Below are positions 24,001 through 35,264 of a stretch of DNA of 39,048 bases, in pieces. The notes under the pieces were generated by a model that searched no databases, had not been told where the DNA came from, and saw nothing but the letters and a program-made list of their open reading frames with translations. Position numbers and translations under genes: made by a program. Positions within the stretch are counted from its first letter, which is position 1. Every line of letters begins with the position of its first letter. The DNA comes from Elusimicrobiota bacterium (lineage in GTDB: Bacteria; Elusimicrobiota; Elusimicrobia; F11): positions 1-39,048 of the forward strand of contig JAJVIP010000014.1 of the NCBI GenBank assembly GCA_022072025.1, in the 5' to 3' direction.

Positions 24001-25065
24001 AACAACGTGACGGATTCGCAGGTCCCTGATGGTTGGTTCTCGGCTGGAAAAGAGACGGAACTTGAACTCAGCAATCTTTCGTTGATTGCCGCCAAGGTCA
24101 CCAAGTTGGCGCAGAGTTTGACTTTTGATCGCAACCCGCCCTTTGATTTGTTGGTGGCGGACGCAGATGGCTTCAGTCTTGAGAATGGACAAATTCAGGT
24201 GGGGTCTGAAATTATGGGGTATTCGACCATCAGTGGGAATTCCATCCGCATCACGAAACGGGGTGAGCTTTATGGGGTGGCCCGGTCCGAACACTTTATA
24301 AATGAAAAAGTATCGAATGAGGCCTATGTCGTTCGGGCTCGTGCTGTTACCACGGGTGGCGTGTTTGGAGCTCAAACAGCGATCAAACTCTATCGGGTGG
24401 ATGTGTCTCCGCCAACCGTGCCCGGCAAACCTATTTCGGACCAGGAGCTGGCGGGGGGAACGCCCTCTAAGACAGGTGTGTTCACCGTTAAGTGGGCCGC
24501 CGGTTCAGATGAAGAATCCAATGTCCGCGCCTACGAAATTCAGGAGCGGGTGGATAACGATCCCGTTTGGACAACACTCCGCCTTGTTCCCTCCAGCCAG
24601 CTTTCCATGCTCATTGGGAACAAAGACACGCCAGCCAATAAACCCAAACCCAGTGGACATTTCTATTCGTATCGTGTTCGCGCAATAAATCAAGCGGGCG
24701 GAACCAGCGCTTGGTCGGACGCGTCAGGGGCGGCCAGCACGGGAGCTCCGGATGAGGCTATATCGAAAGTGACCAATTACCCGAACCCCGTTGACACACG
24801 GCAAGGCCCCACCAATATCGCCTTCATCCTGAATGAAGATGCCAGTGTTAAAATTACTTTGTTCGATCTTTTGGGATATCAAATCCGCGAGTGGCAATTC
24901 AGCGCGGGATCATCGGGTGGAAAAGCGGGCCCCAATGTCTTCCAATGGGATGGAACTGATTCTGGCGGCACGAAAGTGGCAGCGGGTGGCTATATTATGA
25001 GGATTGAGGTCACTGGCACCAAGGGCACCACATCGGTCATCCGAAAAATCGGTATCATCAATTAA
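1..25065 (+). CDS. Giant secreted multi-repeat surface protein (5'-truncated by window edge)
   Basis: The frame is open from the first base, so the start lies outside the window; the GTG at 49 is only the first internal start-like codon. At least 8354 residues are encoded, ending in TAA at 25063-25065. Domain order (residue numbers counted from nt 1): about 13 Ig-like repeats (69-1680); one bracketing Ig-like domain (1681-1798); about 27 repeats with an LLPGET..PG...GK.G.P signature (1799-5272); about seven diverged relatives (5273-6180); eight larger beta-sandwich repeats with D.D.DG loops (6181-7840); an acidic calcium-binding-like stretch; an FN3-like domain; a FlgD-Ig/T9SS-like C-terminal domain. 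It is rich in Thr, Ser, Gly and Asn and nearly cysteine-free (I noted two). No enzyme motif, membrane helix or signal peptide is visible, and the signal would be upstream. I infer a very long extracellular fibre or adhesin. Codon use changes sharply near nt 1650. The neighbouring PorV-like gene fits an export or anchoring partner. Confidence 0.93.
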   Translation, partial: QFYDPATSRTNPNFSIVEPGNSAWFTADTSDAYVNWSATFTWTNGIEYAVQARTVDKAGNVSTIVYSTFTYDTDAPESFVSLPSSSPIKGLVLVSGTASDGGTVTNLEVAIQNKATGLWFDGAGFTGGSTLWQARSSLGGSAPHEWTYTVLNNTHLRTGTSYYIITKAYDDSGNEETDTASGSHTFMYDINVPTATIQVPVQNAYYRGGQITTIAGTAEDLVSTVKTLSLYIQRADGQYWQDVETPADGFGVWGGGATAINVSTANLPNWSYVLGNETQIWLHNQTYRMWIKALDVPGNEQTSYVAGTSSNTFVYDTQFATSVVVVPVASEYYNATTKPLTVVSGTAIDETLGSRVQSVGYSIKESVSGLYWDVNTSTFNSGTELFNAMAFTNPDVWTSTRPTLQDGLAYQVRMRATDKAGNQEPLRTATAFTYDVSSPTARITRPAADSQVSSLPFISGTVSDNTGTAGVQTVELAIYVDTGAWYNNSNGAFDQSSEAFFTATSTNSFTTWFSSNIPFVDGHVYWIKARATDKATNVQNTFGNNISTLAFTFDTSAPTSRVTFPDGTEVRSTIPQITGTASDNKVGIRQVFVSIGQVTGATTDYFNGTSFSAATEYFNLTSGTNEWVYNAAIPYTTGLLYLFRSYAIDVASNTETALPAQVATYYDITKPTATVAVPANATYRSELNTLQGGAYDLTAGLAALASGGIQIRIYEQGGNWWGGSSFNQSDPNAAWTNANGGTPTSWSYTNGSLTTSLLSGTTYLVQVRAKDTAVPANQGPTSNGTNSNFTLGVDSNTVIIDKVAPMSAFILPTSGATTYFNSLPTISGTSFDAISQITSAGQVTLSIKEISPVAAWWNGAATFTATSEQFHSASSLLATNSTWTLTSPTFQHGYGYLIRIKASDNVVPTPNTEVTLSSAVFIYDVKLPTATVTTPANGSIISSLTQLAGTATDEFVLTDVRITIKDNTTDLWWNQAGSTFTLNDGAKVFYQVTPQSPGVWSNWTWTFDSNKLTTGRSYTVHVYAVDAASNTQSVAVSGFTWDLTDPLSNVVSPVDGAFLKAGALALITGTADDTNDIQSVAISIQRLSDNQWWNTGINDWSASGNPLYLETLATIDPPAGIHPRVWQQSAALPPDNKLTADTLYRIRSRATDVPGNVQQSISNGITFRYDISAPAVAIQYPANNILYSDIPVLSGTAQDNFNVKRVELRLRNGSNEYWNGAAWVAGVNTWIVVNGTSATNSVVSWSTGTLPTWAAQTYTMNVRALDEAGNYTGTYSTITFTFDNISPITVTTGPVSGSTLRTLASIHGTVQDGLAPRDIAETRLKIYKVTAGTTEHWNGGSDAWEGPEVWNLVSNSLNQGGSLYYWDYSDNNFTTPPLTWTSGTTFYMVTRAIDTAGNVGLESSTKTFVFDNTAPVSAPSNPLNDRAYKASDLAIISGTSVDATSAVQNVQISIKDEDAAGGAKYYNGSTFSVTSEFFLDVTQLFPSSWTYTSGGLSFTNGHHYVVKSSAADVVGNVETPSGSNRFLLDVQNPVSGVVNPPNDFTGEPTETIFGTASDPGFTSGISGTGSGVKSSLGWHQGKAQILVVRDEGTSIGAGPVSFGSWGAEDYFWNGSTWVATGGGQTWVNADSMDNLGNWTYLGLVNNWIKGKFYVVWVRAVDNAGNVQNSITPGPKFQIAAPAASFVVTGLTDSQAAGFDHDITVEAIDEDGFRATGYQGTVVFTAPGGTETSDSDDTVDDLFGLPKNYTFTGGDAGIHTFATSVRFRMSGSRQVRVEDSLDPSVFGLQNNVTVNPTAAERLMVVLTGQSYAPGESPTPDGNGTINSPTPTTAGNTVVAQIKVVDKYWNVVPSSSPTVSVVSSDPYDTDPGSTAISAGTATVNITMTTAGNQTVTASGAGLPGTSDTLVINPRPADRLVAVLPGQTRTQGKYNVAPFGKTGSVSQIFAGDSMAVSVYGVDQYFNLDPAASAVVYANLPNDVYDVTPSSFSLVSGTTGFTLVPVTAGSQVVQATGAVTNNSYTSESFTVSPDTDTAQVRVQLLFSGETAVPGLPPYAQQNGGKSGAPRAQYAGVGSTVTVRLVDRFYNLISVGAVMPTITLTTSDPNDDTFAFDPMVVALVNGVKQTTITFVTSNNAFSSNTNPARNNVGWQVSTDGGGLYTADVSTWIATWPHDIVKLRLLSSNQVAVEGSDPAGSGKTNSGSPVGGTAGSSYSLTVQAVDAYWNHNKGLGPLHNAGSGDDVDVESNDPYALFHATGPLTLGQKVYSTFQPRKAQSMNVWAYDVTNGAVSSQTISGVTISAAAAEHFQVILPGETPLPGSNVHPTGGKTGTPSDQTAGTAIGAPGVEVRLVDDYWNPITTGALPWVTLTAPEAVDTYAILPSSKQMSLSGGVYRAVFTSTVTLRTAGSALSHRLRADAEGGAYTFALSSYFTVLPNTLSQLQVLMPGEVAAPGRPANWQGGGGLAGKTGSPDEDADNGNGLQDFYAGDSYNVTVNGVDNYFNVVSTDAAINLLSSDVNGTPNNATPLSRTLVAGTTGFTVVFKTAQDSNASPVTQTLTASSGGLTPGQTPNLNIQANSSTRLQILLTGETAAPGTSIGKTGSITSATAGENYSIKVRLTDDYWNAVGNDLSNVGLRLTTTDPYDSPEPDDTATITQGAGNYETTYLHKFQRQSATGWFVSVSTRSGPVYVSTTAGPVPVEADTNASNQHHMIVVLPGEQFEPGKTSAPTGRTGTPDFTAVLGYATPKAGDSFPINVVAVDRFYNKVSDPDNPLVTVSANAYLFPSYSPSASFTLVGGSATVNMILRKSTNSASISVNEATYGSGIEYSTGTSSTFSVSANSATKLQVLLPGETAIPGSSTGKTGQADSDGNNSANGDGIAGNIDDFVAGVAYQVRVQATDDYFNLVTGATPKVTLTTTDPYDQPSSQQQDLISGATIYMQTFFTANPSGWQVNVATSAGIYLSPATSANAVVRANSATKLLALVPGQTHVPGDVSNIGKSGSPTGAAAGTLWIATVTVVDNWYNTVTGGSGNAMFSTSDPYDTEGTTRTLVNGTTSFAVQMVQVGNQTLNIYHLEGIYSTATVSNIPITAGSANRALIILPGETYLPGKPPYTIGSGTGGKETPDSPSSQTAGTAFNVTVYATDAYWNQAVSVATVTLAAPADVNPSGVGILHLVGGVTTYSTTLFKATDYNGSTHTFTAVVSGLTNPNYESPELTLYPDTVGPRKIRLLFAGESRYPGTTVGKSGTPTGTAGDGDFVSGVSASIRIDATDTWGNILNVGSTITFTTDDPYDSNDPRSVTLTNGTSTFSHIFITERTDDAGEATTPSLTYSTASATGYASQSVSIGVDDDNTVRNLQILVQGETAVPGSGAWPSGGKSGQPDGNTGTAPVDNFSAGQNINITVRVVDQYWNLVESPAVGSPLVELTATDPNVNTPLLTGAPMTNGVLNTTVQLRTRNLSPGWVITATATGNGFGFNNDTSSVIPVDAGSLAALQILVPGESPTIGTATGKTGAPQTQTAGTLFNIPIGNIRAVDAYYNPVSTNGSVAITMRDGFGSPQSQVIALSAGANPALVPITLKTSTATFTPQELYVSGLGLATSTSSAIPVNPNTATRLQVLLPGETAVPGSSIGKSGTPNAVAAGDNYAVTVNMTDNYYNVVPQATQPTVRLQTTDPYAFATVAPAQQTLALSGSASFTMTFQRANSAPGWLVLGTTVAASAYSVFPDTSPAVVVIATTTDRLQLVLPGETAVPGSTVGNARGISGTPNVAVAGQNYVVTVNLTDRFYNLKTDFTPQVQVETTDLYDNHPSTRTLLNGTTTFTVRFHTAPGPWTINASTPASHLSPALSNFVSTSVTVNPGAATLLQVLLPGETAVQGKPPYDSGENGGKTGTPDSDLVTGGIQPFVAGSTFNVTVQLVDSYFNRSNTENTFVVITANDPYDDFASFGQKQTGAGGYQNGQTAFVGATLVTRNTNPGWQITASTNTGDNYAVGKSTWIPVTSGALQRLLVLAPGEVSEEGNPIGKSDDVPDTQVAGTTFTVTVRAVDANYNIVTTTDSLVALTFIGNGDSSKDDPFSEPTRPMAKNLINGTTTFDLYLVTAENKETIILATATALTDGVSGSIPMSAAVTDRFQILLPGETAVPGSYAGSARGFQGVPDVDANNGNGIQNFVAGTPFNVQIRATDAYWNKTTATPVNMTLVSSDPNDLNDPLSVGLTAGATTVAWTLNTSNSTGWTLTVDDGPAAFTAFTSTWVPTDPGTAIKLQILLPGETAAPGTSTGKTGSPTSWMAGVSSRVVVNVVDNNWNIVPTASLSVRLSNNTDLFSSTQTLPLVNGTTTFNFVLYTATAATTFTAQRTSGQALASPTATSASLLVNPNTATQLQVLVPGESPVPGKPPYNGTGGRSGSPDYDGNAGNGQTSFPAGVSFNVTVRAVDNYYNLVQPNTKVQLTTEDPFDPTPAAQSLTAGATVFSLYMHTANEAPGWTITASTASDSATNLLSNTSPIVPVTFGAAAKLQLLFPGETAVPGSTANGTKGKTGSPSDATAGVRYDFDVRLTDAFYNVVTDISMPTVGITSTDPYDDEASYFGGNPQSLDPGTGSATVGAYFNTSSSWTVTVTDDPYTNLYQNDTSTWVFVHPAGPARFLVVLPGETHTPGKLTVPLGKTGTPNTQTAGEGVTTTFLVVDNYFNLVSTSQNPVTITTDDPYDTNPGNYALTGGSLTISSVNLRVARSATTVSITDADSNGPSLGSASSASFAVAPSTPSKLQLVLPGESAQPGNGALARGVTGTPNATQAGVNIPIQVRITDNFWNLALASSTVRLTSSDPFDQSTGPWVGQGIDPYDFSVTNGSGTFNFPLITLSTTTGWNFMASDLDDNNSPNPLRFSNFTSSTVVVNPGVSSKLITVLPGETVFSGGANGKSGSASTITAGVEFDVRVYVADVFNNIVTVPPASSGANTADLQISIENNTDPYATIVQSTKSVTASSGFALFQMTMVKAGTHTIAGDDVTSSHGVPWTRNLSSQLTIAPSTATRLLVLMPGETALPGSSSPGKSGSPSSQVAGSTFAVRVQIVDDYYNPQPQHDNEILRVDTSDLYDAHPGSATFANGTSEDTFIVTLRTAEAGHTLRAVDSNQIISSVTWTSSVAGPFTVNPSSASRFLVLFPGESHLPGSATGKSGTPSNQVAGISFAVTVKQTDEQFNAVTNGTMPTMILRSNDVLEEYVSANPSTMVNGERGITLRAKTATTNFTLTATTHSTTASGTEGLKIGQASGLRVWPAVVNHFEFTNLPVSSVSAGDPFNGTIQVRDQFQNLISTGPNLYTGTIRFDAESTANGDFTDSAQDPLLPGNYTFLTSDAGVKNFTGGADGNFILKKAGSRWIKAIDFDDPNITTERAGYSTRPTITIVPGTPNKFVVTSPLDISDGVTDSLVSVAAGNLTNLGKVQIVGQLSDQFNNYISSPNFGVSFNVVNVAGSTGTVRWFDGSNYNLISATVTDVNGQVGSNPPFYYFVSTKSADSAQVQFASHSVTGNTLTLVTRGGSPSKLVFINPPASASVGVWSSNQFTLERRDDFDNSTYETVTNVSLSLGTGQGTTHSSDGKTYYFTQPLDQSSHITTLVFNTGTSQKKFSYYDTMSSLPVGEDSRLGTWQLRADASPLTPAVHELIVNAGPTATIGVDNPKRTIEAGKILYQGNVQEIEFELWDSFSNPTLATETIKVVFLSTRSASPTNEAYGFVLSSAVTTLPGLTSLTTGSLDITSGTYVTKLYYFDTRSSESYGVLAASRPIIGGYAQGRSWQTADHFVDIQPTFDLDNKVVIVSSPAVFVAGSTSSALQIQLQDKYSNPTPVILGSEDSVGNGIRFRLESDSTGNYGFASPSSATFSSGNGVAQLMLGQHTTAYYLKDTKSGTHIQTVRENFLPSRGWVIATQTYTVVAASPYRLIFETPVRKLIAGTTTTYVMGVSTPNIRIQMRDIYDNVTASTGTQVVDVFSDSTLGEASIALDGVFASNYGANGLTLTFTPGTSERDLYYRDQTVGLPVLSAVHQQNLIIAATQHVVITPNQATKLSLEHSFNNGSPLSVRNEGVINVVARDQYNNPANGGVTLGENNGLTYSGTIILSHSGSSSTVTLSGDGVGISTLTLTGTATGTFTLKDLVQENLKLYATDYNNPSINARTGLPPSNDDVVTTGLVGTPQDMAPEPTGPSRDPFKDAIFIPTALAQGDGTTVDKPNPVAMLRIRTEVKPAGVPSYSVWKGLRVTKLGTLPNSDVIEVGLWRDMGSKDGEFDISVDGDGLSSGVPLATGTFQNVSGNDICDFDFTASSQIITTVFQQYFITVRISTTAQEGTTLGVGVLDSSAFTIPAVESTARIAENNFPMRSYTSPIIKTPAPVMLQATNIAAYYSNTQHASVPQGQTSVGYLKLGFWTRDFTGILDKIKLTRIGTSSDIDVENVRLYYDGITGTDGDGFFQPGSDTLIGSSQMQFSTSAATLNLVPDMLITGTTKYLFLVMGLAESAQIGATLGVRLPSRTDIVLSDGIMVDYLQDPSTQSFPILSGTPPIAATNDQLIINPIPVAPAAAVQGDEDVPILRMDMYSSAHSVILQGVRINRKNSNLVNKPSDVADMRVYYDLDGDQVLDPTVDQIVSPTNKAITFISTVLDTAISNAATVIPVTTVEDVPTAPGRLVLEDNSGNREVVTYSGIDAVFNEFTGVTRGVEGSTPIAHAVGATVDAQAFIPIFGPLSGQEILGNLKFKPETILAVDMDLSTGPLVVDVSDTSEFPPSGSLQIDAEVGITYTGKTSTSFTGVRRTLPETHITGDVVLGAGRNKSYFIVYDVADLATPGRLAGQQTVLGLDIAATSYVTVGSPDIVSLIPSFNAEIGDILEFGDTITVVATNTTLGGTLQQQALNQPVMQLTLATNRSEAFWTGVGILSTGTANPSDVERIGVWYDLDNNGVFTEISDVMVGSGTFGNTGNPKLAQINFNEEQLLVTNSRSVGENISPRYFVTVDMESLATPETTMGFVISGPSAFSMTPTPPNLDTVSPSGLPAISRLRTIIPSPRVVTVVPEILYSNSNGVSITPVIDVDVTANATSIPIRPNTVGLPTTGYAVIDSEIVYYGGKSNGSLLNVDRGQFGTAAQSHIGGAQVGVYYTQGDLNNAFMKLLVSCNGFNVRWFSLKLNRYLPAGSIKGDDADVAMIKIWKDNGNGVLDRDSATGLIPPGTEFLMGEKALGTESDAAGTAVISLNDSTIGNPGFTLITSQQTTYWVTVDVDPTAEFDDLLGFKINSPTSLTIGALTANDGIHSVANTNMPVTTPAHVLRPTLDTMKIFIEDLAPPEVTQGQRYVPMARINLKTTANTVVWTNLRVDLTSDNGAVNGDVSAIRLFQDVGNDAIFNVQETSTNANGVLVRQLSQGTETFNNMVTTLNLGSQVIESEIVNPSGQNYFLAYDLNAFAQVGKNVGVQIAATSYFSVAYPDLSVFHPISPPFLSSRSSILEAEDLVTLAVEDSAKDAALAGGTYQASENVEVMRFSVTTDISQAYWTGLRVERIGASADPAYPYGHNADVKYVKIWRDTNFNDQLDASDELLSSPTAHFSLTDENDRIVQLDLTSPVLISPTARSFFLSYDIGEGAEAGASLGVKIGDLSWISVSAPNEVSPTIRYLSGAAGTQSYPYQTSLIPINAVQVTISGQTLAPAQIPQLSTGVPMMMFTMNTDRNFVTLKKIQLIQIGTVETSADGQGDISKISIWRDNGNTIFEPGNDVLIGSVLHAASTDYVNGTAYLYLNVSSGQVINTTPLNFFVTVDVGDRSLSNRSTEGHEFGLKIQAFSSLFFVPPTAGSNPNNSFSSLISNKTLILDEGAAIVSSVFLLPKIWVNPFGDGYPAIDQSGSPAARQYDSFGVPLVDVDGDGENDIIKDASTSLPGIDLDGDGLIEMDMTRSGLLSVDFNNDGKPDDVLPDQNGDGIPEIDLAKDGFPDFGYIPEKWSKDTSRLFSRWARINNSTLEEYQIGVGVNNMSNNVTDSQVPDGWFSAGKETELELSNLSLIAAKVTKLAQSLTFDRNPPFDLLVADADGFSLENGQIQVGSEIMGYSTISGNSIRITKRGELYGVARSEHFINEKVSNEAYVVRARAVTTGGVFGAQTAIKLYRVDVSPPTVPGKPISDQELAGGTPSKTGVFTVKWAAGSDEESNVRAYEIQERVDNDPVWTTLRLVPSSQLSMLIGNKDTPANKPKPSGHFYSYRVRAINQAGGTSAWSDASGAASTGAPDEAISKVTNYPNPVDTRQGPTNIAFILNEDASVKITLFDLLGYQIREWQFSAGSSGGKAGPNVFQWDGTDSGGTKVAAGGYIMRIEVTGTKGTTSVIRKIGIIN
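205..5040 (+). repeat. Array A: about 13 tandem Ig-like repeats
   Basis: Units of about 124 residues (about 370 bases) each begin with F.YD...PTA.V..P, continue with L..ISGTA.D and a WWNG or WYNG motif, and end with Y.V..RA.D.AGN. I counted 13 starts, for example near 208, 562, 940, 1300, 1651, 1996, 2395, 2767, 3118, 3502, 3841, 4228 and 4582. The pattern matches bacterial Ig-like domains of large adhesins. Units are diverged in sequence, so this is protein-level rather than perfect DNA repetition. Units 1-4 have distinctive codon use. Confidence 0.85.
5041..5394 (+). other. Bracketing Ig-like domain, first copy
   Basis: A single domain with the pattern Y.GTV.F, then NYTFT..DAG.H.F, then GSR.VRV.D. 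It sits exactly between array A and array B. A second, recognisably related copy sits at the other end of array B (15817-16200). This type of Ig-like domain is common in large bacterial secreted proteins. Confidence 0.65.
5395..15816 (+). repeat. Array B: about 27 tandem PGET/GKxGxP repeats
   Basis: Units of about 129 residues (mean about 386 bases). Each opens with a strand such as LQVLLPGE, followed by T.VPG, a variable loop, GK[ST]G[ST]P and AG..F.V.V. It continues with VD.YYN.V, a TTDPYD-type acidic motif, L..GTT.F, and closes with GW.I.AST and VNP.SAT. I counted 27 openings, the clearest at about 8521, 10828, 11203, 12373, 12766 and 15073. Loops after the PG motif vary most and sometimes carry D.D..NGNG inserts (7400, 8590, 12460, 13200). 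I do not recognise a named family for the PGET/GKxGxP signature; the fold is presumably an Ig-like sandwich. Confidence 0.85.
15817..18540 (+). repeat. Array B': second bracketing domain plus diverged relatives of array B
   Basis: This stretch starts with the second Y.GTI.F / NYTFLTSDAG domain (15817-16200). About six units follow with the same closing-opening rhythm as array B (for example PNKFVV, PSKLVF, SPYRLIF, ATKLSLE, each followed by a V.D.YNN motif). They have lost the PGET and GKxGxP signature. Unit openings lie near 16205, 16600, 16978, 17401, 17776 and 18150. A proline-rich linker closes the region around 18540-18600. Confidence 0.65.
18541..23520 (+). repeat. Array C: eight large beta-sandwich repeats with embedded small modules
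   Basis: Eight units of about 500-800 bases. The shared pattern is a QG or PQ opening, a W.GLRV.R.G strand, a V..V.VW.D...DG.F....D.L acidic loop, and a closing YF..VDV...A..G..LGV.I.S strand. Openings are near 18600, 19130, 19650, 20630, 21140, 21930, 22450 and 23005. The acidic loops (for example DGDGFFQPGSD and DLDNNGVF) look like calcium sites. Inside some units sit short inserted modules with ID.E...Y.G and GV.RG..GT...H..GA.V at about 19920-20160, 20230-20400 and 21190-21415. A diverged fourth copy is at 24120-24330. Confidence 0.8.
23640..23885 (+). other. Acidic calcium-binding-like D.D.DG stretch
   Basis: Within about 80 residues there are several D-x-D-x-D-G or D-x-N-x-D-G loops (VDVDGDGEND, IDLDGDGLIE, VDFNNDGKPDD, PDQNGDGIPE). 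This resembles thrombospondin type 3 or FG-GAP-like calcium loops in secreted proteins. It separates the repeat arrays from the C-terminal domains and may stiffen when calcium is bound (inference). Confidence 0.7.
24403..24756 (+). other. Fibronectin type III-like domain of the giant protein
   Basis: The stretch opens with PPTVPGKP and contains VKWAAGSD, a YEIQER strand and YRVRAINQAG.SAWSD. This is the usual FN3 pattern of a tryptophan early and a Y.VRA..... WS near the end. It lies immediately before the C-terminal sorting-type domain, a common order in secreted proteins. Confidence 0.8.
24769..25062 (+). other. C-terminal FlgD-Ig / T9SS-like sorting domain
   Basis: The last roughly 95 residues contain YPNPVD, ITLFDLLGYQIREW, WDGTDSGG.KVAAGGYI and a basic-hydrophobic end RKIGIIN. 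This is the pattern shared by FlgD Ig-like domains and the C-terminal domains that direct type IX cargo (YPNP... V.D..G..V... W.G.D..G..V..G.Y). The family match is strong. That it is a true secretion signal here is inference, supported only by the adjacent PorV-like gene. Confidence 0.75.
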
Positions 25066-25445: not shown

Positions 25446-27155
25446 ATGATCGAAGTGAGAGAGGGATCACATCGAGTTTTTATTTTCAAAGCGATGAACT
25501 CGCTTTGGAATTTTATTTTTTCCCCGGCCCGCCCCTCCCTGATGAATTCTTCATATAAATTCAACACGCCGCTGAAATCACATCTCACCCATGTGTTTTT
25601 GGTTTTGGTGTTGATGACATCTTGGTCCCGCGTATTTGCCGGCGGAGAACCCGCCGGGTTTTTACAATGGGGCATTGGCGCCCGTTCGTTGGGAATGGGT
25701 CGGGCCTTTTTGGCTGTGTCCGACGACGCCAGCGCTACCTATTGGAACCCCGCCGCCATGGTGCAATTGGAGAGAAAAGAGCTTCAAGCCATGCAGGCTT
25801 CTTTGTTCGAGGAAACCACACTTAATTCACTCAGTTATGTTAGTCCAGGCAACAAAATGGGGGCGTGGGGTTTTAATTTCACACGGCTGAATTCAGGTGG
25901 GTTTGAGAAAGTCGCTGTCACGGTGGATCCCACCTCGGACCCATCGAGCCCCAGCTATCTGAATGTTGAAAAAGTGGGCTCTTATACGGTGGCCCAACAA
26001 GGCATAACTCTGGCTTATGGAAAACAAGTGACGAACAAGCTTTCCATGGGAATTTCGTTAAAGCGGATCAGCACCCAAATTGACACTTTCACGCAGTCTT
26101 TCTCAGCGGTGGACCTCACCGTCTTCTCAAAGGTAAATGAGAACTATCGATTTGGTTTGGCCTTTAAGAATGCGGTAACCCAAGCTCCCGCAGCCTCTAA
26201 TGACCGCCTCCCTTTAACCATTCGCTTGGGGAATGCTTATAGTCTTTTAAACAAGCGGCTTGTTTTGGCCGCGGATATCAACTCCAATAAATACTCCGGC
26301 ATGGGGTGGAATTTGGGGACTGAATATTGGGCCACGCGAAAGATGGCGCTGCGTTTAGGGCTTGAGAGCCGTCAAAGCCAGATCGCTGAAACGACATTTG
26401 GATTTGGATTTGCTGTTAAGAGCGTTAATTTAGATTTGGCTGTGGGTCTAACCGAACTTGGAATGTCGCAACGGATGTCTTTATCTTGGAAATTCGGCAA
26501 AGGAGCCACCACGGGTCGCGGTGAAGAAGTTCGTCGATTGATCAAAGCAGGCGAGATGGCCTTTGGAAAAGGCAATTATGCGCAGGCGGTTGCCCGGCTC
26601 GAAGCGGCTCTTTCCGTCGATCCTGGAAACAAAGATTTGCAATCCATGGTGACCAAAATGAACAGCATTGCAGGGTCGGTTCCTGCGGCGACGGGGGATG
26701 GAGAAATTGACCGGTTGGTGCGGCAAGGTGTGTCAGCTTTTGTCCAAGGTGATTTGACCACGGCCTATGATTCCTTGCGCACCGCCTATGAGAAAAATCC
26801 GTCCAACCAAAATCTCATGAACTTTACCAATCGCGTGGCGCGTCAAGCCGGGCTGCCGCAAGTGGAACCCCCGCGCGACACCACCTCTGGCGCTCGTTGG
26901 ACGCTGGTCGATCAAAAACTGCATGACGCTCTGACCGCGATCTATGAAGGTCGCTATGACGTGGCCATCAGCAAATGCGAACAAGTCCTGCGGATTGACC
27001 CGAGCAATGTGACGGCGATTGGGCGTATGGGCGCGGCATTCTTCCTGATGGGTGAAAAAGACAAGGCCATCACGCTCTGGAGACGGGCGCTTGAACTTGA
27101 ACCGAACAACCAGACGGCCATCGATTATCTCCGCCAACTGGGCGCCTATAAATAA
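25446..27155 (+). CDS. PorV/UPF0164-like outer-membrane barrel protein with C-terminal TPR repeats
   Basis: 569 residues. The ATG at 25446 follows AAAGGGTG at 5-6 bases. A hydrophobic core (about 49-59) and a VFA/GGEP cleavage-like site (about 65/66) form a signal peptide with an unusually long n-region. The ATG at 25542 (residue 33) would give a normal-length signal but has no visible ribosome binding site. Residues about 66-355 are a barrel opening with GARSLGMG.AF.A..DDA.A.YWNPA, the hallmark of the PorV/PorQ/UPF0164 family. Residues about 358-569 hold three or four TPR-like units (for example A..RLEAAL..DPGN and AI..WRRALELEPNN). PorV shuttles type IX cargo to the cell surface; family members also occur in bacteria without that system. 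A TPR tail would face the periplasm and could bind the motor proteins encoded next (inference). Confidence 0.85.
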   Translation: MIEVREGSHRVFIFKAMNSLWNFIFSPARPSLMNSSYKFNTPLKSHLTHVFLVLVLMTSWSRVFAGGEPAGFLQWGIGARSLGMGRAFLAVSDDASATYWNPAAMVQLERKELQAMQASLFEETTLNSLSYVSPGNKMGAWGFNFTRLNSGGFEKVAVTVDPTSDPSSPSYLNVEKVGSYTVAQQGITLAYGKQVTNKLSMGISLKRISTQIDTFTQSFSAVDLTVFSKVNENYRFGLAFKNAVTQAPAASNDRLPLTIRLGNAYSLLNKRLVLAADINSNKYSGMGWNLGTEYWATRKMALRLGLESRQSQIAETTFGFGFAVKSVNLDLAVGLTELGMSQRMSLSWKFGKGATTGRGEEVRRLIKAGEMAFGKGNYAQAVARLEAALSVDPGNKDLQSMVTKMNSIAGSVPAATGDGEIDRLVRQGVSAFVQGDLTTAYDSLRTAYEKNPSNQNLMNFTNRVARQAGLPQVEPPRDTTSGARWTLVDQKLHDALTAIYEGRYDVAISKCEQVLRIDPSNVTAIGRMGAAFFLMGEKDKAITLWRRALELEPNNQTAIDYLRQLGAYK

Positions 27156-27223
27156 GGAATCACATTAAATTCAAGCATGGAAAACCTCTCTGGGGGGCTT
27201 TATACTTCTTGGGGAGAAAACGC

Positions 27224-29110
27224 ATGAATGTTGCTTCAAGAAAAATCAGCTTGATTTCTATGGTTGTTTTGCTCGGTTTTGGTTCGGTTCTTTTTCCGGA
27301 AACCGATGCTCCCGACCCCATGGCGCTGGATCAAGAGCGCCGCCTGAAAGATGATTCCGAAAGACAAGCCCAATTGATTTGCGACAGCATTCTTGGGAAA
27401 AACCGGTCCAGTGTTTTGGTGAATGTCGAGATTGGACTTGAAAGCACAAGGAAAGGTGGATCCGCTTTAAATCAAAAGCGGGATTCTAAGAGCGGATTGG
27501 GGGATGACAATTTTATTCTGCCGTGGGTTCCCGCTCCAAAATCCGTCAGTAAAGAAGAAACCCCCAAAGACATGAATGTGGAGAATCAAGCCGCGCAGCA
27601 AGCCACCCTGGACGTTAAAACAGTTCTTAAACGGTTTGATATCACTGTTGTTCATGACGACTCCATTCCTGAGGAACGCGTCATCATTGCCAAAGAAGCC
27701 TTGGCGTCGGCGTTTGACCGTTATAAATCCATCTTGAAACTGGTTTTTAAAGCCAGTTCCTTTCTAAAGGACAATTACGATCCCAAAGAATCCATCAAGA
27801 AAAATCTCATCGGATCTTTGGATGCGAAAACCTTGGTCTATTTGTTGTTGTTGCTTCTGGTGTTCATGCTCCTCCGTTTCTTTTTTGGCCCCCTGGCTGA
27901 TTTCATGAAGAATTACATTGAAGGAATGAAAGAACAGTCCAAATCCAAGGTGGAAATGGAAAACAAGAGCGAAAGTGAAACTGACAGTGAAGCCAGCAAT
28001 GAAGAAGAAGGAAACCTGGAAGGGGAAAACGGGTTAACGGCTGAGGAACAAGCCGCTTTGGATGTGCAGTTGGCAGAGGAGGAAGCCATGAAAAAATTCG
28101 AACCATTTAAATACGTGACTGACGACAACATCAAACAGTTGGCTTACCTTTTACACCATGAAGAACCGTGGGTGGTGGCTCTTGTGATCTCCTACTTAAG
28201 CGCCGAACATTCCTTTAAGGTTATGGAAGCCCTGCCCGCTGATCTCCAGGCCAAGGTGGCGCTTGAAACCGCCATGTATCGGCAAACTTCTCACGAACAA
28301 GTCCAAGCGATTGATGAAGACATCAAACAGAAGATCGACTTTGTGGTGGGAGGTCTTGAAAAATTGGTGGTTATCCTGGAGAGCTCGGACCGGATGTCTC
28401 GAGACAATATCTTGGAGTATCTTAAAAATGAAAAGCCCGGTGTCTATGAGCGTGTGCGGGAACGGGTGTTGTTGTTTGAAGACATTGTTAATTTTCCAAA
28501 ACCAGCCATGCAGGTGGTGGTGCGAGAATTAAAAACAGAGCAGTTGGCGAGAGCTTTAAAGGGAACAAGTCCAGAAATGCAACAAAAGTTTTTCGAAAAC
28601 ATGTCTCAAGGGGCGGTGACGTTGCTTAAGGAAGAAATGGATTATGGACGACCGGTAACGGATGAACAGATTGAGGAAGAACGGCGCAAAATCATCGACC
28701 TGATTAAAAGCATGGAGACGGAAGGAAAAATATCGTTTCGACAAAAAGGGAAAGGGGCTTCTTTGGGGGCGCTTGATATGGGCGCGGATGGTCCCATGGC
28801 AATACGGGGACCAGTGGGGAGTGCCGCCCAACCTTTGGATCCTGAAGGGGCTCAGGCCGCTTACATGGCCGGCTTACAGGCGCAAGAGCAAGGCAATGCT
28901 GAAGAATCTCTTCGACAATGGGAACTCAGTGTCCAATTGGATCCGACTGTGGCCGCTTCGCAACTGGCTTTGGCCGGCGCTTATTACGCCGCGGGGCGAT
29001 ATCCGGAAGCCTTGGCTGCTTATGACGCGGGGCTTCAAATCGAACCCAATCCTGAATTACAAGCTTGGGTGGAGCAATTTCGCCTGAGCCAATCGGCGCC
29101 GGCGGCTTGA
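27224..29110 (+). CDS. FliF-like/FliG-like fusion motor protein with C-terminal TPR
   Basis: 628 residues. The ATG at 27224 follows GGGGAG at 7 bases; a TTG at 27209 in the same frame is less likely. A signal-anchor is at about 8-24. Residues 36-180 resemble the third ring-building domain of FliF: ILGKNRSSVLVNVEIGLEST (56-75), an insertion, then a second half ending near 180. A membrane helix lies at 204-223 and an acidic linker at 245-290. Residues 296-505 are clearly FliG middle plus C-terminal domains, including LARALKG (441-447), FFENMSQ and a KEE acidic helix. Residues 541-616 are TPR-like. FliF forms the flagellar inner-membrane ring and FliG the torque-bearing rotor; here one chain carries both, spanning periplasm to cytoplasm. 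The FliM-binding EHPQ motif of FliG is EEPW here. The FliF RBM1 and RBM2 domains are absent. Confidence 0.85.
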   Translation: MNVASRKISLISMVVLLGFGSVLFPETDAPDPMALDQERRLKDDSERQAQLICDSILGKNRSSVLVNVEIGLESTRKGGSALNQKRDSKSGLGDDNFILPWVPAPKSVSKEETPKDMNVENQAAQQATLDVKTVLKRFDITVVHDDSIPEERVIIAKEALASAFDRYKSILKLVFKASSFLKDNYDPKESIKKNLIGSLDAKTLVYLLLLLLVFMLLRFFFGPLADFMKNYIEGMKEQSKSKVEMENKSESETDSEASNEEEGNLEGENGLTAEEQAALDVQLAEEEAMKKFEPFKYVTDDNIKQLAYLLHHEEPWVVALVISYLSAEHSFKVMEALPADLQAKVALETAMYRQTSHEQVQAIDEDIKQKIDFVVGGLEKLVVILESSDRMSRDNILEYLKNEKPGVYERVRERVLLFEDIVNFPKPAMQVVVRELKTEQLARALKGTSPEMQQKFFENMSQGAVTLLKEEMDYGRPVTDEQIEEERRKIIDLIKSMETEGKISFRQKGKGASLGALDMGADGPMAIRGPVGSAAQPLDPEGAQAAYMAGLQAQEQGNAEESLRQWELSVQLDPTVAASQLALAGAYYAAGRYPEALAAYDAGLQIEPNPELQAWVEQFRLSQSAPAA

Positions 29111-29112
29111 TC

Positions 29113-30864
29113 GTGAAATCATCTGAAGAACTCGACCAACGATTGGCCCGGCTTCAAAAATGGTCGGAACGCTATGACCGGTTATTAGAACGAGAAGCGA
29201 GGTCCATTGAAGCGCTCTATTTACACGCTGTGCAGGACTGGGACAAAGAGAAAAAAGAAACAATCGAAAGTATTGCCCTTCGAGAAATAGAAATAAAAAC
29301 CCAGTTGGAACAAGCGGGAAAGGACTATTCCCAGGCGAAATATCGTTTGGAACGAGACACCCAAAAAACCAAAGAAGATCGCGCGCGCCTGGATGAAGAA
29401 TTTTCTGAAGTGGAAAAAAAATATGAACAGGAACTCACGCGGATACAAGAGGAAAAAACCCAATTGAAAATTTCGTTGGAAAGGCAAAAAAGCGCGTTGA
29501 CTGATTTGTATCAGGAAAAAATGAGGCATTTAGCTGTGACTCGAGCTGGCCTTTTGAGGGAATGGCAGAACATTGAGATTAAAGTGAAAGGCACCAAAGA
29601 TAAGGCGCAAGAGGAAATTAAAAAACTGAATGAAGATTCGGAACAAAAATTAACCCAGCTCAAAAACAACGCCGAATCGAAAAGAGCGGGGTGGTCTCTG
29701 GCGCTTGAAACCATCAAAAAAGAATTGGGCTCGCTCAATCAGGAACGGGAGCATCTTCAAGAACGATTGGCCAACATTAAGGGGGAAAAAGAAAAGGAAT
29801 TGCATGAAGCACGCTTGGGAATGAAGGTGTTGCGGGAGCAGCTGGAGGTCGACAAGGCCACGCTCATCGAAAAAGCCGAGGTCGACCAGCAACAATGCGA
29901 AGTGGAAGTAGTGGATTTAAGAAATAAAGTCATTTCAGGCGAGAAAGAGCTTCAGGATCTCGTGTTGAGGCACGAACAGGCCAAAAAACAAATGGAGGAG
30001 GCCTTCCAAAAAGAAGAATCCCTGCTCAAGGAGACGGTCAAAACGGAATCAGAGCGCCGGGATTATGAGCAGAAATTATTTGAACAGGAGAAAACCTCCA
30101 AGGAGAAAGAGCTCAATCGTCTCAAGGAAGAGTACGAAAAGAAAAAATGGCAATGGGACAATCAGATTCGCTCGTTAATGATGCAAAAGGCCGTTCGAGA
30201 CTCTGAGTATGACGCTGAGCGATTGCGTGTGGACCGGGAGGCACGAACCTCTTTGAGAAGTTTGGAGGCGAAGAGAGATGAGTTAAAGCAGCGACTGGCC
30301 GACGTCAAGAATCGAACGGCCGCTGTGAGCGCGAATTCGGAGAAAGAAATCAATTTAATCAAACAACGTTGGCAATGGCGGAGGGATCGTTTGTGGGCTT
30401 TGTGGCAAAACCGTTTGGATGTTTTGAAAAAGGAACGCATATCCCTTCAAGAGCAAATTGAAATCTTAAGTCAAAAATTCCTGAAAGAAACGAGCCACTT
30501 GAGAGAGGCTGAAAATCAAGATCTGAAGCGAACCGATGAGATGCAGAGTTTTCTCTTGCAAATGGATGAAAATAACAAAGGGCAGAAAAAACAGCGCGAA
30601 ATGCAATTTGAGCTTGAAAAAACGAAGCTTTTCGCACAGATTAAAGAGCTCGAAACAACCATTTCGGATTGGATCGATCGGATGAAGATGACTCATTCGG
30701 AGGTATTAAAAGAGTCATCAGGAGTGGGAGCCCAAGTGGGATTCCTTGATAAGTGGTATCGCCAAGAAGAACAGGAGACACAAGTATTTCTTCGAGCTGT
30801 CCAAGAAGCTTTGTCGGTTGTAGAAGCCATCTTTGAAAGTCTGGGAGCGAAAAAAGCGGCGTGA
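29113..30864 (+). CDS. Long coiled-coil protein of the motor operon
   Basis: 583 residues from the GTG at 29113, two bases after the upstream stop. A TTG at 29107 overlapping that stop (TTGA) is an alternative; neither has a strong ribosome binding site, so translational coupling is likely. From about residue 5 to 560 it is almost unbroken heptad-rich, charged sequence (many E, K, Q, R and L), with no signal peptide or membrane helix, so it is predicted cytoplasmic. I recognise no family; hits to SMC or myosin-like proteins would be compositional. Its place after the FliF-FliG fusion gene suggests a scaffold or connecting rod on the cytoplasmic face of the motor (inference). Confidence 0.8.
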   Translation: MKSSEELDQRLARLQKWSERYDRLLEREARSIEALYLHAVQDWDKEKKETIESIALREIEIKTQLEQAGKDYSQAKYRLERDTQKTKEDRARLDEEFSEVEKKYEQELTRIQEEKTQLKISLERQKSALTDLYQEKMRHLAVTRAGLLREWQNIEIKVKGTKDKAQEEIKKLNEDSEQKLTQLKNNAESKRAGWSLALETIKKELGSLNQEREHLQERLANIKGEKEKELHEARLGMKVLREQLEVDKATLIEKAEVDQQQCEVEVVDLRNKVISGEKELQDLVLRHEQAKKQMEEAFQKEESLLKETVKTESERRDYEQKLFEQEKTSKEKELNRLKEEYEKKKWQWDNQIRSLMMQKAVRDSEYDAERLRVDREARTSLRSLEAKRDELKQRLADVKNRTAAVSANSEKEINLIKQRWQWRRDRLWALWQNRLDVLKKERISLQEQIEILSQKFLKETSHLREAENQDLKRTDEMQSFLLQMDENNKGQKKQREMQFELEKTKLFAQIKELETTISDWIDRMKMTHSEVLKESSGVGAQVGFLDKWYRQEEQETQVFLRAVQEALSVVEAIFESLGAKKAA

Positions 30865-33614
30865 AAATGGATAAACCTGACGATAAACCAGGACCCACGG
30901 GTCCGCTTCGGCCTCCGCACCCTCCTCCCGGGGGGAATAAGCAGGGGTCCTTGCCCAAGGGGCCTGTTCCACCGCGGGGGGGAGCTCAACTTCCGGGTCT
31001 TAAGCCCATGGCCCGCCCTCCGGCGGCGGTTCCACCCACTGGAGGATCACCTACTCCACCGCCACCGAAAACCATGTCTCCCCCGGGTCCTCCAGCAATG
31101 AAAGGTCCTCCTCATCCACCGGTTCCGTCTGTGGCGCCGCCGGCGCCGCCGGCACCACCCGCGGCGGGAGCCATCCCTCCCGTTGTGAGCAACAAGTTGG
31201 CAGAGGCAGATGAGGCCAAAACAGACATGGAAAAGCGCATCGCAGAACTTGAGAAAAAACTTTTAGAGGAAAAAGAAAAAGTTTTGCTCGCTTCTTTGCG
31301 GACCAAAGAGGAAGAGGCCGTTTCAGCCAAAGTCGAAACATCTATAAAAGAGATCCAAGACAAAATCCGGCGGGAAAAACGTGAACAAGAGTTGGATGAG
31401 GCGCGCCGAAAGTCAGAGGCTCGGGCGCTTGAGCTTGAGCGGCGTATGGCCGAGGAAAGAGAGGCGTGGGTATCAACCCTCAAAACTCAATTGGGACAAC
31501 GGGACCAAGTTACGCAGGAGATGGAAACACACTTCTCAGCGCGGCTCAAAGATTTGGAGTACCGCTGGTCCCAAGAAAAATCAGCTTTGGAAAGCGCACT
31601 TCGAGAACGGGAAGCGGAATTAACCCGGGTCCGACATGAAGCTCAGCTCAAAAGCGAACAAGAAAAAGCGTTCTGGGAAGACCGTTTGAAATCGATTGCG
31701 GCAGAACGAGACAAACTCGATCGAGAATTAGAGAGAAGCAAAGACAAGTTTTCACAAGAAAAAGACCATTTGCTTCTAGAACGGCAATCGCTTCGGGATC
31801 ACTTATCCAAGTCAGAAAATATGTTGAAGTTCATAGAAGAACAACATCGAACGGAAAAAATGGTTCTTCAGCGCGAAGCCGACGCCAATCTGGGACTTGT
31901 CAAGAAGCAAATCAATGTCGAGAAAGAAATGCATGATAAAGAGGTGGCCGGTCTCCAAGCGCTTATTCAGAATCATGTCAGAGAGATCTCAGAAAAAAAC
32001 AAAGCCCACCATGCTCTTGAGCAGCAATTAACAACGGCACGCGCTCAAAATACTCAGTTGGATTTTAGGATGCATGAGAAAGATAAATTGTTGCAGGATC
32101 AAAAACAGAAAGTGGTCGATTTAAATGGGGTTATTGAAAATGTCCGTAAGAAATATGAATTGGAAATAAAAGAATTAACCAATGAATTGAATCGGACAAA
32201 AATTGCAAATAAAGATGAGGCGTTACGTGCCCAAACGGAATCAGAAGCGCGAATAAAGACTTTGCAATCACGCCTCGATTGGTATGACTCAAATGTCAAG
32301 CGTGAATATGAAATCGCCCGTACGAAGGTTCAGAACGAATTGGATGAACTGAGAGAAAAATCAAAATTAGCTGAGAGAGAAGCTTCAGAACTAAAGGCTG
32401 AAAAGCAAGCACGGATGGATGAGCTTGAGGAAGCCAAAAGACAAAGGCAGCAAGACAATAAAGCGCGATTGGCGGCAGAAGAGACTCTGGAACAATTGAA
32501 GGCCGAATGGAAACAAGTGCAGTGGAATTTTGAAGGGCAACTCAAAGAAATAAATGAGCAGCTACGCTCAACCCAATCCAAGTTGGAACAAGCGGAGGAC
32601 GTTCGCATTACCCTCGAACAAGAGCTCAAACAACGTCATTCCAATGCTGACTATATTCAAAACCAATTGGAGCAAAGAGAAAATGAGCTTAAAAAAGTGT
32701 CCGATCGATTAGAAAAGCTAACCAAAGATTATGACTTCACCAAGGAGAAAGAAGCTGCCATGGAAGCTCAGGTGGAGGAATATAAGAAGATTCTCCAAGG
32801 GAAAGGATGGGAAGGGATTGAAGGTTTGAGATCACAATTACAAGAAAAAACAGAAGTTATTGAAAAAACACGAGAAACTGTTCAAAAGCTCAATCTTAAA
32901 ATTCAGGAATTAGAGAAAAAAGAAGACCAATTTAGAGAGAAAGAACATGCGCTTAAGCAAATCATCGCGAGCAAAGACGACATGGTAAACGAGTTTAAGA
33001 ATAGGGTGAATGTTTTGGATCGAAAACTTTCCCAATTACAGCAGGATCATGAGGAGTTGGAAAAGGAATCCCAAAAAGAACGAGAACGTATGTTAGAGGT
33101 CAAACGAGTCGAGATTGAACAATTGATGAAGAAAAAAGAATTAGAAATAGAAGAAGAGAAGAAAGCGGCGGTTGAAGCCGTTATGGAGAAAATGCGCGCT
33201 GAGCTCCCACCCCCGGGTCCCAGCGCCGAGGCCATTGAGAGCCAGATTCGACTGAAATTGGAGACAGACTTCATGGATCAGTTGAGGCAAAAAGAAACGC
33301 TGTATGAGGAACGCCTCGCCAAGGTTTCAGAGGAATCAAAAAAAGACATCGATAAATTAAAGTGGGAGATCGAGAGCGCCAAAGAAGAGGCCAAGCGCGC
33401 TCGTGAAGCTCGTTCTCAGATCGAGCGAGAGGCACAAGAACTCCTTCAGCAAGCCGATGCCCATTATCAACGAGAATTATCAAAACATCTCGCGATGTCC
33501 GGACAAGGTGAGGGTAAAGCCAGAGGCCTCTTCACTTCCATTGGAATGGTGATTGGGAAAATTTTAGACACACCCATTATTGATACCAAGAAGAAAAAAG
33601 ATGATTTGCCTTAG
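30861..33614 (+). CDS. Very long coiled-coil protein with Pro/Gly-rich head and amphipathic tail
   Basis: 917 residues from the GTG at 30861, which overlaps the upstream stop (GTGA); an ATG at 30867 is possible. Residues about 5-108 are a low-complexity proline/glycine-rich head with PPPP and PPAPPAPPA runs. Residues about 115-880 are continuous coiled coil, on the order of 110 nm if fully extended. The last 30 residues contain a small hydrophobic segment (GLFTSIGMVIGKIL) and a lysine-rich end, which could touch the membrane. No signal peptide. The layout recalls cytoskeletal or polarity scaffolds such as AglZ or FrzS of Myxococcus gliding only in general shape; no receiver domain is present. 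The function is unknown. It may be a track or scaffold for the motor. Confidence 0.8.
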   Translation: MKMDKPDDKPGPTGPLRPPHPPPGGNKQGSLPKGPVPPRGGAQLPGLKPMARPPAAVPPTGGSPTPPPPKTMSPPGPPAMKGPPHPPVPSVAPPAPPAPPAAGAIPPVVSNKLAEADEAKTDMEKRIAELEKKLLEEKEKVLLASLRTKEEEAVSAKVETSIKEIQDKIRREKREQELDEARRKSEARALELERRMAEEREAWVSTLKTQLGQRDQVTQEMETHFSARLKDLEYRWSQEKSALESALREREAELTRVRHEAQLKSEQEKAFWEDRLKSIAAERDKLDRELERSKDKFSQEKDHLLLERQSLRDHLSKSENMLKFIEEQHRTEKMVLQREADANLGLVKKQINVEKEMHDKEVAGLQALIQNHVREISEKNKAHHALEQQLTTARAQNTQLDFRMHEKDKLLQDQKQKVVDLNGVIENVRKKYELEIKELTNELNRTKIANKDEALRAQTESEARIKTLQSRLDWYDSNVKREYEIARTKVQNELDELREKSKLAEREASELKAEKQARMDELEEAKRQRQQDNKARLAAEETLEQLKAEWKQVQWNFEGQLKEINEQLRSTQSKLEQAEDVRITLEQELKQRHSNADYIQNQLEQRENELKKVSDRLEKLTKDYDFTKEKEAAMEAQVEEYKKILQGKGWEGIEGLRSQLQEKTEVIEKTRETVQKLNLKIQELEKKEDQFREKEHALKQIIASKDDMVNEFKNRVNVLDRKLSQLQQDHEELEKESQKERERMLEVKRVEIEQLMKKKELEIEEEKKAAVEAVMEKMRAELPPPGPSAEAIESQIRLKLETDFMDQLRQKETLYEERLAKVSEESKKDIDKLKWEIESAKEEAKRAREARSQIEREAQELLQQADAHYQRELSKHLAMSGQGEGKARGLFTSIGMVIGKILDTPIIDTKKKKDDLP

Positions 33615-34583: not shown

Positions 34584-35264
34584 ATGTCGCTCAAACCTCC
34601 CAAGGGAATGATCGAGGAATCCGACCCTCGCGTCACATTAATTGGGCATCCCGCCCCGGGTTGGATGGTCAATTACGCCGATTTGATGACGGAACTGGTT
34701 TGTTTTTACTTAATCCTCTATGCGCTGTCGGCTTCCCTTTCCAAACCAGTTCAAGAAGCGAAGAAACAAGTGGAAGAGACCATGAAATCAGAGGATGTGG
34801 CCGGTGACGTTAAAATCACAAAAGACGGCTTGGTAATTTCACTGCAGGAACAGGGGTACAACGTTTTTTTTGAAAGCGGATCGAGTGAAATGACCGATCA
34901 AATGAAACACATACTCGATCAATTGGCCCCCACTTTCCAAGGTTTGGCCGAAAAAAAGCATGACATGATTGTGGAAGGGCACACCGATGATATTCCCATT
35001 CGAACCGCCAAATTTCCCTCCAATTGGGAGTTGTCAACCGCCCGGGCCACAACGGTGGTTCAATATCTTATTGCGCAGCATCGATATCCTCCGGCGCATA
35101 TCGCCGCGATTGGTTATGGGGAAAACAAAGCTCTTCAGCGGTCCGAAGATGAAGACTTAAATGCGTGGCGATCCAAAAACCGTCGCGTTGTTTTTGTGGT
35201 TAAAAACCCCGAAAAACAAGAAGTGGTCAACGGGAAAAAAGCCTCCGAAGAAAAACCCGATTAA
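34584..35264 (+). CDS. motB: MotB-like stator subunit with peptidoglycan-binding OmpA domain
   Basis: 226 residues; the ATG directly abuts the motA stop. One membrane helix (about 27-50) carries the ion-binding aspartate D33 in WMVNYADLMT, equivalent to D32 of E. coli MotB. The OmpA-like domain (about 80-210) has VEGHTDD.PI, FPSNWELSTARA, and a basic NRRVVF end, the peptidoglycan-anchoring pattern. It is shorter than the E. coli protein (308 residues), mainly in the linker and tail. The coupling ion (H+ or Na+) cannot be told from what I see. The next gene converges, so this is the last gene of the operon. No clear terminator is visible in the 41-base gap. Confidence 0.92.
   Translation: MSLKPPKGMIEESDPRVTLIGHPAPGWMVNYADLMTELVCFYLILYALSASLSKPVQEAKKQVEETMKSEDVAGDVKITKDGLVISLQEQGYNVFFESGSSEMTDQMKHILDQLAPTFQGLAEKKHDMIVEGHTDDIPIRTAKFPSNWELSTARATTVVQYLIAQHRYPPAHIAAIGYGENKALQRSEDEDLNAWRSKNRRVVFVVKNPEKQEVVNGKKASEEKPD

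Follow-up and report, generated by a model that had tools for sequence, protein, structure and literature searches.

Can a rotor of flagellar type exist, and do work, in a bacterium that builds no flagellum? To our knowledge, the flagellar rotor proteins FliG and FliF are generally regarded as working only inside flagella, and a single gene of an Elusimicrobiota bacterium (GenBank assembly GCA_022072025.1) raises the question. The gene lies in a stretch of 39,048 nucleotides (contig JAJVIP010000014.1), here referred to as the window. An initial annotation of it, made from the letters alone, had described a natural fusion in which the RBM3 domain of FliF, a membrane helix, the middle and C-terminal domains of FliG and a TPR tail follow one another on one chain, with RBM1 and RBM2 lost and a new cytoplasmic partner of the TPR tail in place of FliM and FliN; from these losses and the added tail it had conjectured a smaller or non-circular rotor. 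Structure comparison and conservation of the fusion in relatives were proposed as checks.

Domain Organisation of the Fusion Protein

The reading frame of the fusion extends from 27209 to 29110 on the forward strand, with a TTG at 27209 and an ATG at 27224. A Shine-Dalgarno-like GGGGAG precedes the ATG, so that 27224, the start already favoured in the initial annotation, is most likely the true one and gives a protein of 628 amino acids; residue numbers used here run from the TTG and have to be lowered by 5 for the ATG start. The positions of the domains and of the neighbouring genes are collected in Table 1.

Table 1. Features of the fusion locus and of a class-II fusion gene in the same genome (positions in the window unless another contig is named).
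Feature	Position	Strand	Basis or remark
Giant Ig-like surface protein, at least 8,300 aa, FlgD_ig / T9SS type-A-tail-like C-terminus	1..25065	+	Open at contig start
PorV/PorQ-family outer-membrane barrel with C-terminal TPR domain	25446..27155	+	NF033709 121 bits (cut-off 90), E=6.7e-35; TPR match
FliF-FliG fusion rotor protein, 628 aa	27224..29110	+	TM1/signal, RBM3, TM2, acidic linker, FliG_M, FliG_C, TPR tail
N-terminal hydrophobic segment (TM1 or signal peptide)	27245..27301	+	Residues 13-31, hydropathy
FliF RBM3 domain	27305..27823	+	Residues 33-205; family profile, PF08345, E. coli FliF match, weak model
Second TM helix, FliF TM2 equivalent	27833..27889	+	Residues 209-227, hydropathy; profile match reaches through E. 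coli FliF TM2
Acidic linker, in place of FliF C-tail/FliG_N co-folded domain	27917..28102	+	No FliG_N match there
FliG middle domain (FliG_M)	28133..28339	+	Residues 309-377, PF14841 E=3.6e-14
FliG C-terminal domain (FliG_C) with torque helix (K451, G468, E475, E476)	28418..28735	+	Residues 404-509, PF01706 E=1.2e-28
Cytoplasmic TPR tail	28850..29068	+	Residues ~548-620, TPR_2 E=2.8e-7
Coiled-coil protein CC1	29065..30864	+	Start probably 29107 or 29113; homologue in L004 only
Coiled-coil protein CC2, proline-rich N-terminus	30861..33614	+	
MotA-type stator subunit, 262 aa	33795..34583	+	PF01618 9e-26; NCBIfam MotP/MotA/PomA; residues
MotB-type stator subunit: plug, Asp33 (=Asp32 of E. coli), OmpA peptidoglycan domain	34584..35264	+	PF13677 2.5e-9, PF00691 1.9e-14; residues
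Class-II fusion paralogue in source genome	G000:C5, L003:7138-8955		

The FliG part is recognised directly, with PF14841 and PF01706 both well above their cut-offs and FliG of T. maritima as the best FliG match in the PDB (E=3.5e-38). The flagellar FliG model TIGR00207 gives 129 bits, below its full-length equivalog cut-off of 226.7 bits, and is matched over positions 106-328 of 338 alone. A separate FliG_N domain is absent from the fusion, the weak FliG_N match (E=0.047) falling on the FliG_M region. RBM1 and RBM2 are absent as well: PF01514 matches neither the fusion nor anything else in the source genome. Thus the natural order RBM3, membrane helix, FliG_M, FliG_C and TPR stands as first described, on direct matches for the FliG and TPR parts and through family profiles for RBM3.

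Identification of the RBM3 Domain

Taken alone, the N-terminal part of the window protein (residues 33-205) had no match in Pfam or NCBIfam; the RBM3 assignment could therefore not rest on a single sequence, and profiles of the family were used. A profile of 45 members placed FliF chains first among PDB entries (E=2e-7, 8e-7 and 1.4e-6), the only other match above noise being SpoIIIAG, an RBM3-like ring protein of sporulation. Individually, 28 of the 45 members match PF08345 (YscJ_FliF_C), the best at 3.3e-11. A hold-out profile, from which the window protein, L004 and L007 had been left out, recovers the window N-terminus at E=5.8e-37. It also matches E. coli FliF over residues 232-466, a stretch that takes in RBM3 and TM2, at E=1.1e-8, and two FliF proteins of Elusimicrobiota; none of 20 shuffled copies of the window segment was listed by it. 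Furthermore, the domains can be found together above Pfam cut-offs within one protein, namely PF08345, FliG_M, FliG_C and TPR in L067, and YscJ_FliF_C with both FliG domains in L086.

The RBM3 domain of the fusion also carries a collar-loop insert of approximately 55 residues, which harbours an LPGVP-type motif that is almost invariant across the family (LPWVP in the window) and which, in the alignment of the family profile to FliF structures in the PDB, resembles the PGGVPG motif of Salmonella FliF. The AlphaFold models are poor (pLDDT 52 for the whole protein and 60 for RBM3) and were given little weight for that reason; a Foldseek search with the fusion model finds FliG at 2.9e-10 and TPR near 3e-4, while the RBM3 model, which has the expected alpha-beta-beta-alpha order and a disordered insert, places FliF structures at the top of the list at E>=0.085 and low TM-scores, a weak support only. 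Judged by its profile matches, which lie far beyond chance, the N-terminal region of the fusion is an RBM3 domain of FliF.

Distribution and Classes of the Fusion Family

Conservation in relatives is extensive. In profile searches of 248 Elusimicrobiota genomes the fusion profile matches 103 genomes from 54 of 76 genera, often with paralogues and at most five matches in any one genome. A small number of the weakest (e.g., in the flagellated genomes G032 and G246) are possibly flagellar FliG. A search of the genome contigs with the single fusion sequence returned one locus only. The close relative L004 shows 70% identity.

At least three classes can be distinguished. Class I, which includes the window protein, comprises fusions of approximately 600-680 amino acids with a TPR tail and a coiled-coil neighbour. 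Class II fusions are shorter, approximately 490-600 amino acids, and like class III (L085-L087 and the first copy in L053) are without TPR. As the TPR tail and the coiled coil are missing from classes II and III, not every copy need have the same job. Very long fusion frames in L015, L031, L054 and L065 were considered as larger fusions and set aside, since they probably reflect extension of the start over the preceding gene in GC-rich DNA.

Separation From the Flagellum

The source genome, given as 100% complete, has no match to FlhA (PF00771), FliM/FliN (PF01052) or FliF RBM1/2 (PF01514), and across the 248 genomes these families rise above their cut-offs in the same three only. In one flagellated genome, G215, flagellar FliF and FliG share a contig and the fusion lies on a different one, so that flagellum and fusion are separate systems. 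The FliM-binding motif EHPQ is kept in 0 of 55 aligned fusions, the window protein having EEPW, and the linker between FliG_M and FliG_C is shorter in all 55 than in four of five flagellar FliGs. In an unrooted FliG tree, drawn with a midpoint root, the five flagellar FliGs (two from Elusimicrobiota) form a clade of their own with a support of 0.90; on these sequence criteria the fused FliGs are a lineage apart from flagellar FliG. This lineage might retain a rotor that predates the addition of export, a point on which the FliG tree cannot tell.

The absence of FliM and FliN claimed in the initial annotation is accordingly borne out, whereas the proposal that a partner of the TPR tail stands in their place fares less evenly. 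It is plausible in that neither FliM/FliN nor the EHPQ motif is left and 23 of 34 fusion members scanned have TPR families, but the tail is not universal, and its absence from classes II and III means that it is not essential to the rotor.

Gene Neighbourhood

The title of the initial annotation goes no further than one protein; more weight falls on the conserved operon around it, with MotA/MotB, a PorV-family barrel and a giant surface protein, in a genome without a flagellum. In the window, the genes are arranged in the order giant protein, PorV-TPR barrel, fusion, CC1, CC2, MotA and MotB. Those from the fusion onwards overlap or are separated by short gaps, and the same order is found in L004. 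The contig start cuts the gene of the giant protein, which must therefore be longer than the part seen; its C-terminus matches FlgD_ig above cut-off, and the sorting tail model TIGR04183 reaches 20.6 bits, just under the curated cut-off of 23.

Counted over 30 class-I loci, the PorV-TPR gene lies directly upstream of the fusion and on the same strand in 29, a CC2 homologue is nearby in 24, 18 have MotA/MotB at a distance of up to 9 kb, and in 18 an orthologous C-terminus of the giant protein lies upstream. A MotA-MotB pair of the same family is located elsewhere in seven other genomes, most of which have class-I loci with no stator nearby. For classes II and III, 13 of 14 loci have MotA on the same strand at a distance of no more than 9 kb.

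After the class-II paralogue of the source genome, at L003:8958-12057 (G000:C5) and in the syntenic L076 region, come MotA, a pair of MotB-like proteins and a response regulator of PleD type that has a GGDEF domain, a gene content which suggests that cyclic di-GMP controls the class-II system. Downstream of MotB in the window, on the reverse strand (35306-37447), lies a ClpB-like disaggregase without the N-terminal domain, the model match beginning at position 147 of 853.

Stator and Rotor Residues

The MotA and MotB proteins of the window have the features of a flagellar-type stator: a basic residue at the R90 position and prolines P173 and P222 in MotA, and Asp32 together with a peptidoglycan domain in MotB (E. 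coli numbering). The best NCBIfam models for MotA are MotP/MotA/PomA (1e-52 to 1e-66), ExbB reaching only 0.37. Among the partners of the fusions, the R90 position of MotA is basic in 33 of 34 and both prolines are invariant (34/34), E98 is often replaced by Gln, as it is in the window, and the Asp32 position of MotB is kept in 39 of 43.

In E. coli the reference contacts between rotor and stator are R90-D288/D289 (PMC12505986) and E98-R281. Across 55 fusions, the position of D288 in FliG_C is Glu in 47, that of D289 is Glu in 30 and that of R281 is Gly in 45; set against K264, R281, D288, D289 and R297 of E. coli, the torque helix of the window keeps K451, E475 and E476 and has Thr at the R297 position. 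The charges kept at R90 and D288/D289 indicate that the first contact is retained, the second being mostly given up on the rotor side. With this second charge pair lost, torque generation may differ from that in E. coli.

Class III departs from this pattern. Its members (L085, L086, L087 and L053:2344-4131) have Lys at the R281 position and Gln (or Glu) at D288, and for three of the four the partner MotA carries Lys or Arg at E98, so a compensated rotor-stator interface is possible from the sequences. At L067:14552-15175, L077:12432-13208 and L083:12041-12781, a second copy of MotB has Gly or Asn in place of the ion-binding Asp; each lies beside a MotB copy that keeps the Asp, and mixed or degenerate stators are possible there.

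A Proposed Envelope-Spanning Motor

That the fusion belongs to a non-flagellar rotary motor, whatever its use, is highly probable. The reading preferred here, to which a probability of about 0.55 is given, is that of a rotary motor driven by ions, with a rotor coupled across the periplasm to a carrier in the outer membrane and a giant adhesin, most likely for gliding. We infer ring formation, rotation, contact between ring and barrel, movement of the adhesin and gliding from the domain content, the stator and rotor residues, the absent flagellum and the conserved gene set. MotA and MotB, anchored to peptidoglycan, would push the torque helix of FliG_C at the expense of the proton (or sodium) gradient. 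With FliG covalently tied via one membrane helix to RBM3, torque would pass straight into a periplasmic RBM3 ring, the joint of FliF C-tail and FliG_N, FliM/FliN and the export apparatus being dispensable in such a motor. The ring may then act on the PorV-family barrel, probably through the TPR domain of the latter, and the barrel would be the carrier of the giant surface protein, so that the motor would move a surface adhesin. Organising or steering the rotor is the probable task of the coiled-coil proteins and of the cytoplasmic TPR tail, although the TPR domains could serve assembly only.

Gliding is favoured because the pair of giant protein and PorV-family barrel beside a motor looks, by analogy, like the logic of SprB and SprF with a different motor. 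In Flavobacterium, the adhesin SprB is anchored by the outer-membrane carrier SprF and moved by a motor driven by the proton-motive force (PMF) (PMC12635249). The Bacteroidota gliding and type 9 secretion (T9SS) machinery (GldLM, GldKN, SprF, SprB; PMC12635249) shares with the fusion system an inner-membrane PMF motor, a carrier barrel with a giant adhesin and an SprA-like translocon in the genome; the fusion system differs in having MotA/MotB and a FliF-FliG rotor rather than GldLM/GldKN, and a PorV-family barrel with TPR. The Agl-Glt machinery of Myxococcus (PMC13104615) likewise uses a stator-type motor in gliding and a coiled-coil scaffold, but is without a FliG or FliF rotor, and AglRQS belongs to a generic class of ion transporters (PMC12505986).

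With the flagellar motor, the fusion system has in common the stator class, the FliG_M/FliG_C fold, the acidic residue of the torque helix, and RBM3 with TM2 of FliF; it differs in being without type III secretion, FliM/FliN, RBM1/RBM2, FliG_N and the FliF C-tail, in the lost EHPQ motif and the Gly at the R281 position, and in its pairing with a PorV barrel and a giant surface protein. That ring, membrane helix and rotor can work on one chain is known from artificial FliF-FliG fusions in Salmonella (PMC7355467), as the initial annotation had noted, and these and the Vibrio FliF-FliG S-ring (PDB 8z4d/8z4g) assemble and rotate (PMC7355467, PMC11481574). Such laboratory fusions are, however, designed, contain all FliF domains and function inside a flagellum. 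A natural FliF-FliG fusion in non-flagellated bacteria has been described in Chlamydiaceae, where a protein of approximately 330 amino acids with part of an SctJ-like region and FliG_M only, lacking RBM3, was proposed as an injectisome partner (PMC4768692); the window protein, in contrast, has RBM3, FliG_M and FliG_C. SpoIIIAG shares the split, RBM3-like ring domain found by the family profile but has neither FliG nor a stator.

In one survey, 11% of non-motile species had rotor proteins but no filament, and an alternative function was noted only as possible (PMC12199754). The stator-type motors named in a 2026 review of gliding motors include GldLM and AglRQS, and FliG does not turn up in its text when searched for. 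No description of a FliG/FliF rotor machine outside flagella, or of one tied to Elusimicrobiota, was found in the open-access papers searched. The system is a new form of MotAB-FliG motor and possibly a new class of machine. The chances are about even that it represents a phylum-wide, undescribed class of envelope-spanning rotary machine, in which MotAB, FliG and FliF outside the flagellum drive a carrier and a giant adhesin; if so, a flagellar-type motor would be the third type of gliding motor besides GldLM and AglRQS. One phylum here offers a compact, conserved and export-free rotor with its own stator and its own partner in the outer membrane and at the surface.

Alternative Functions

The main rival to gliding, though an unlikely one, is that the motor energises type-9-like secretion, of the giant protein or of other substrates through SprA, in place of GldL/GldM and without cell movement. 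The operon itself lends this some credit, as it holds a PorV-family carrier and a substrate with a T9-like tail. In addition, the source genome encodes a diverged SprA-like translocon of approximately 1,800 amino acids (G000:C2:481105-486456; L122:2992-8457), which has no Pfam match of its own but scores 1522 bits against a phylum SprA profile seeded from proteins found with PF14349. With this profile an SprA-like protein is near-universal, occurring in 166 of 199 Elusimicrobiota genomes, most of which Pfam SprA_N misses, and genomes without SprA were also without a fusion match when the two lists were compared. The GldM model matched none of 150 genomes, which would agree with a replaced energiser, but no control genome gave a match either. 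Against a role in secretion, many SprA-bearing genomes have no fusion, including almost all of family f2; families f2 and f12, mostly of smaller genomes, keep SprA while the fusion is absent. Secretion therefore does not depend on the fusion, and the idea of the fusion as an obligatory T9SS energiser is weakened. Also against this role, a single genome may hold several fusion systems, each with its own stators.

Slightly less likely still is a PMF-driven machine for another envelope task, such as anchoring or rotation of a surface filament, polysaccharide export, remodelling of the envelope or of cell shape, or surface sensing. The many jobs done by motors of the stator class (PMC12505986), the coiled-coil neighbours and the GGDEF regulator beside the class-II copy are consistent with it, but the tight link to a giant surface protein and a carrier-type barrel in class-I loci would be left unexplained.

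The fusion is not a flagellar remnant. Flagella do exist in a few Elusimicrobiota, yet a decayed or recent remnant without a function of its own is very improbable and is rejected in view of full-length, intact frames across tens of genera, a conserved operon and conserved stator residues, a lineage separate from flagellar FliG and coexistence with a flagellum in G215. A Zorya-type anti-phage system is more improbable again and is likewise rejected: MotB matches PADLOC ZorB models (E=8.7e-19), as other MotB proteins do, but MotA is without a ZorA match, the operon proteins scanned gave no match to ZorC, ZorD or ZorE, and FliG and FliF domains are not part of Zorya.

Downstream of the window in the source genome (L121:11368-15981; G000:C14), a 999-amino-acid TPR-like protein has as its neighbours on the same contig one protein resembling ExbB, two resembling ExbD and possibly one resembling TonB, and this set is perhaps another PMF-driven envelope system.
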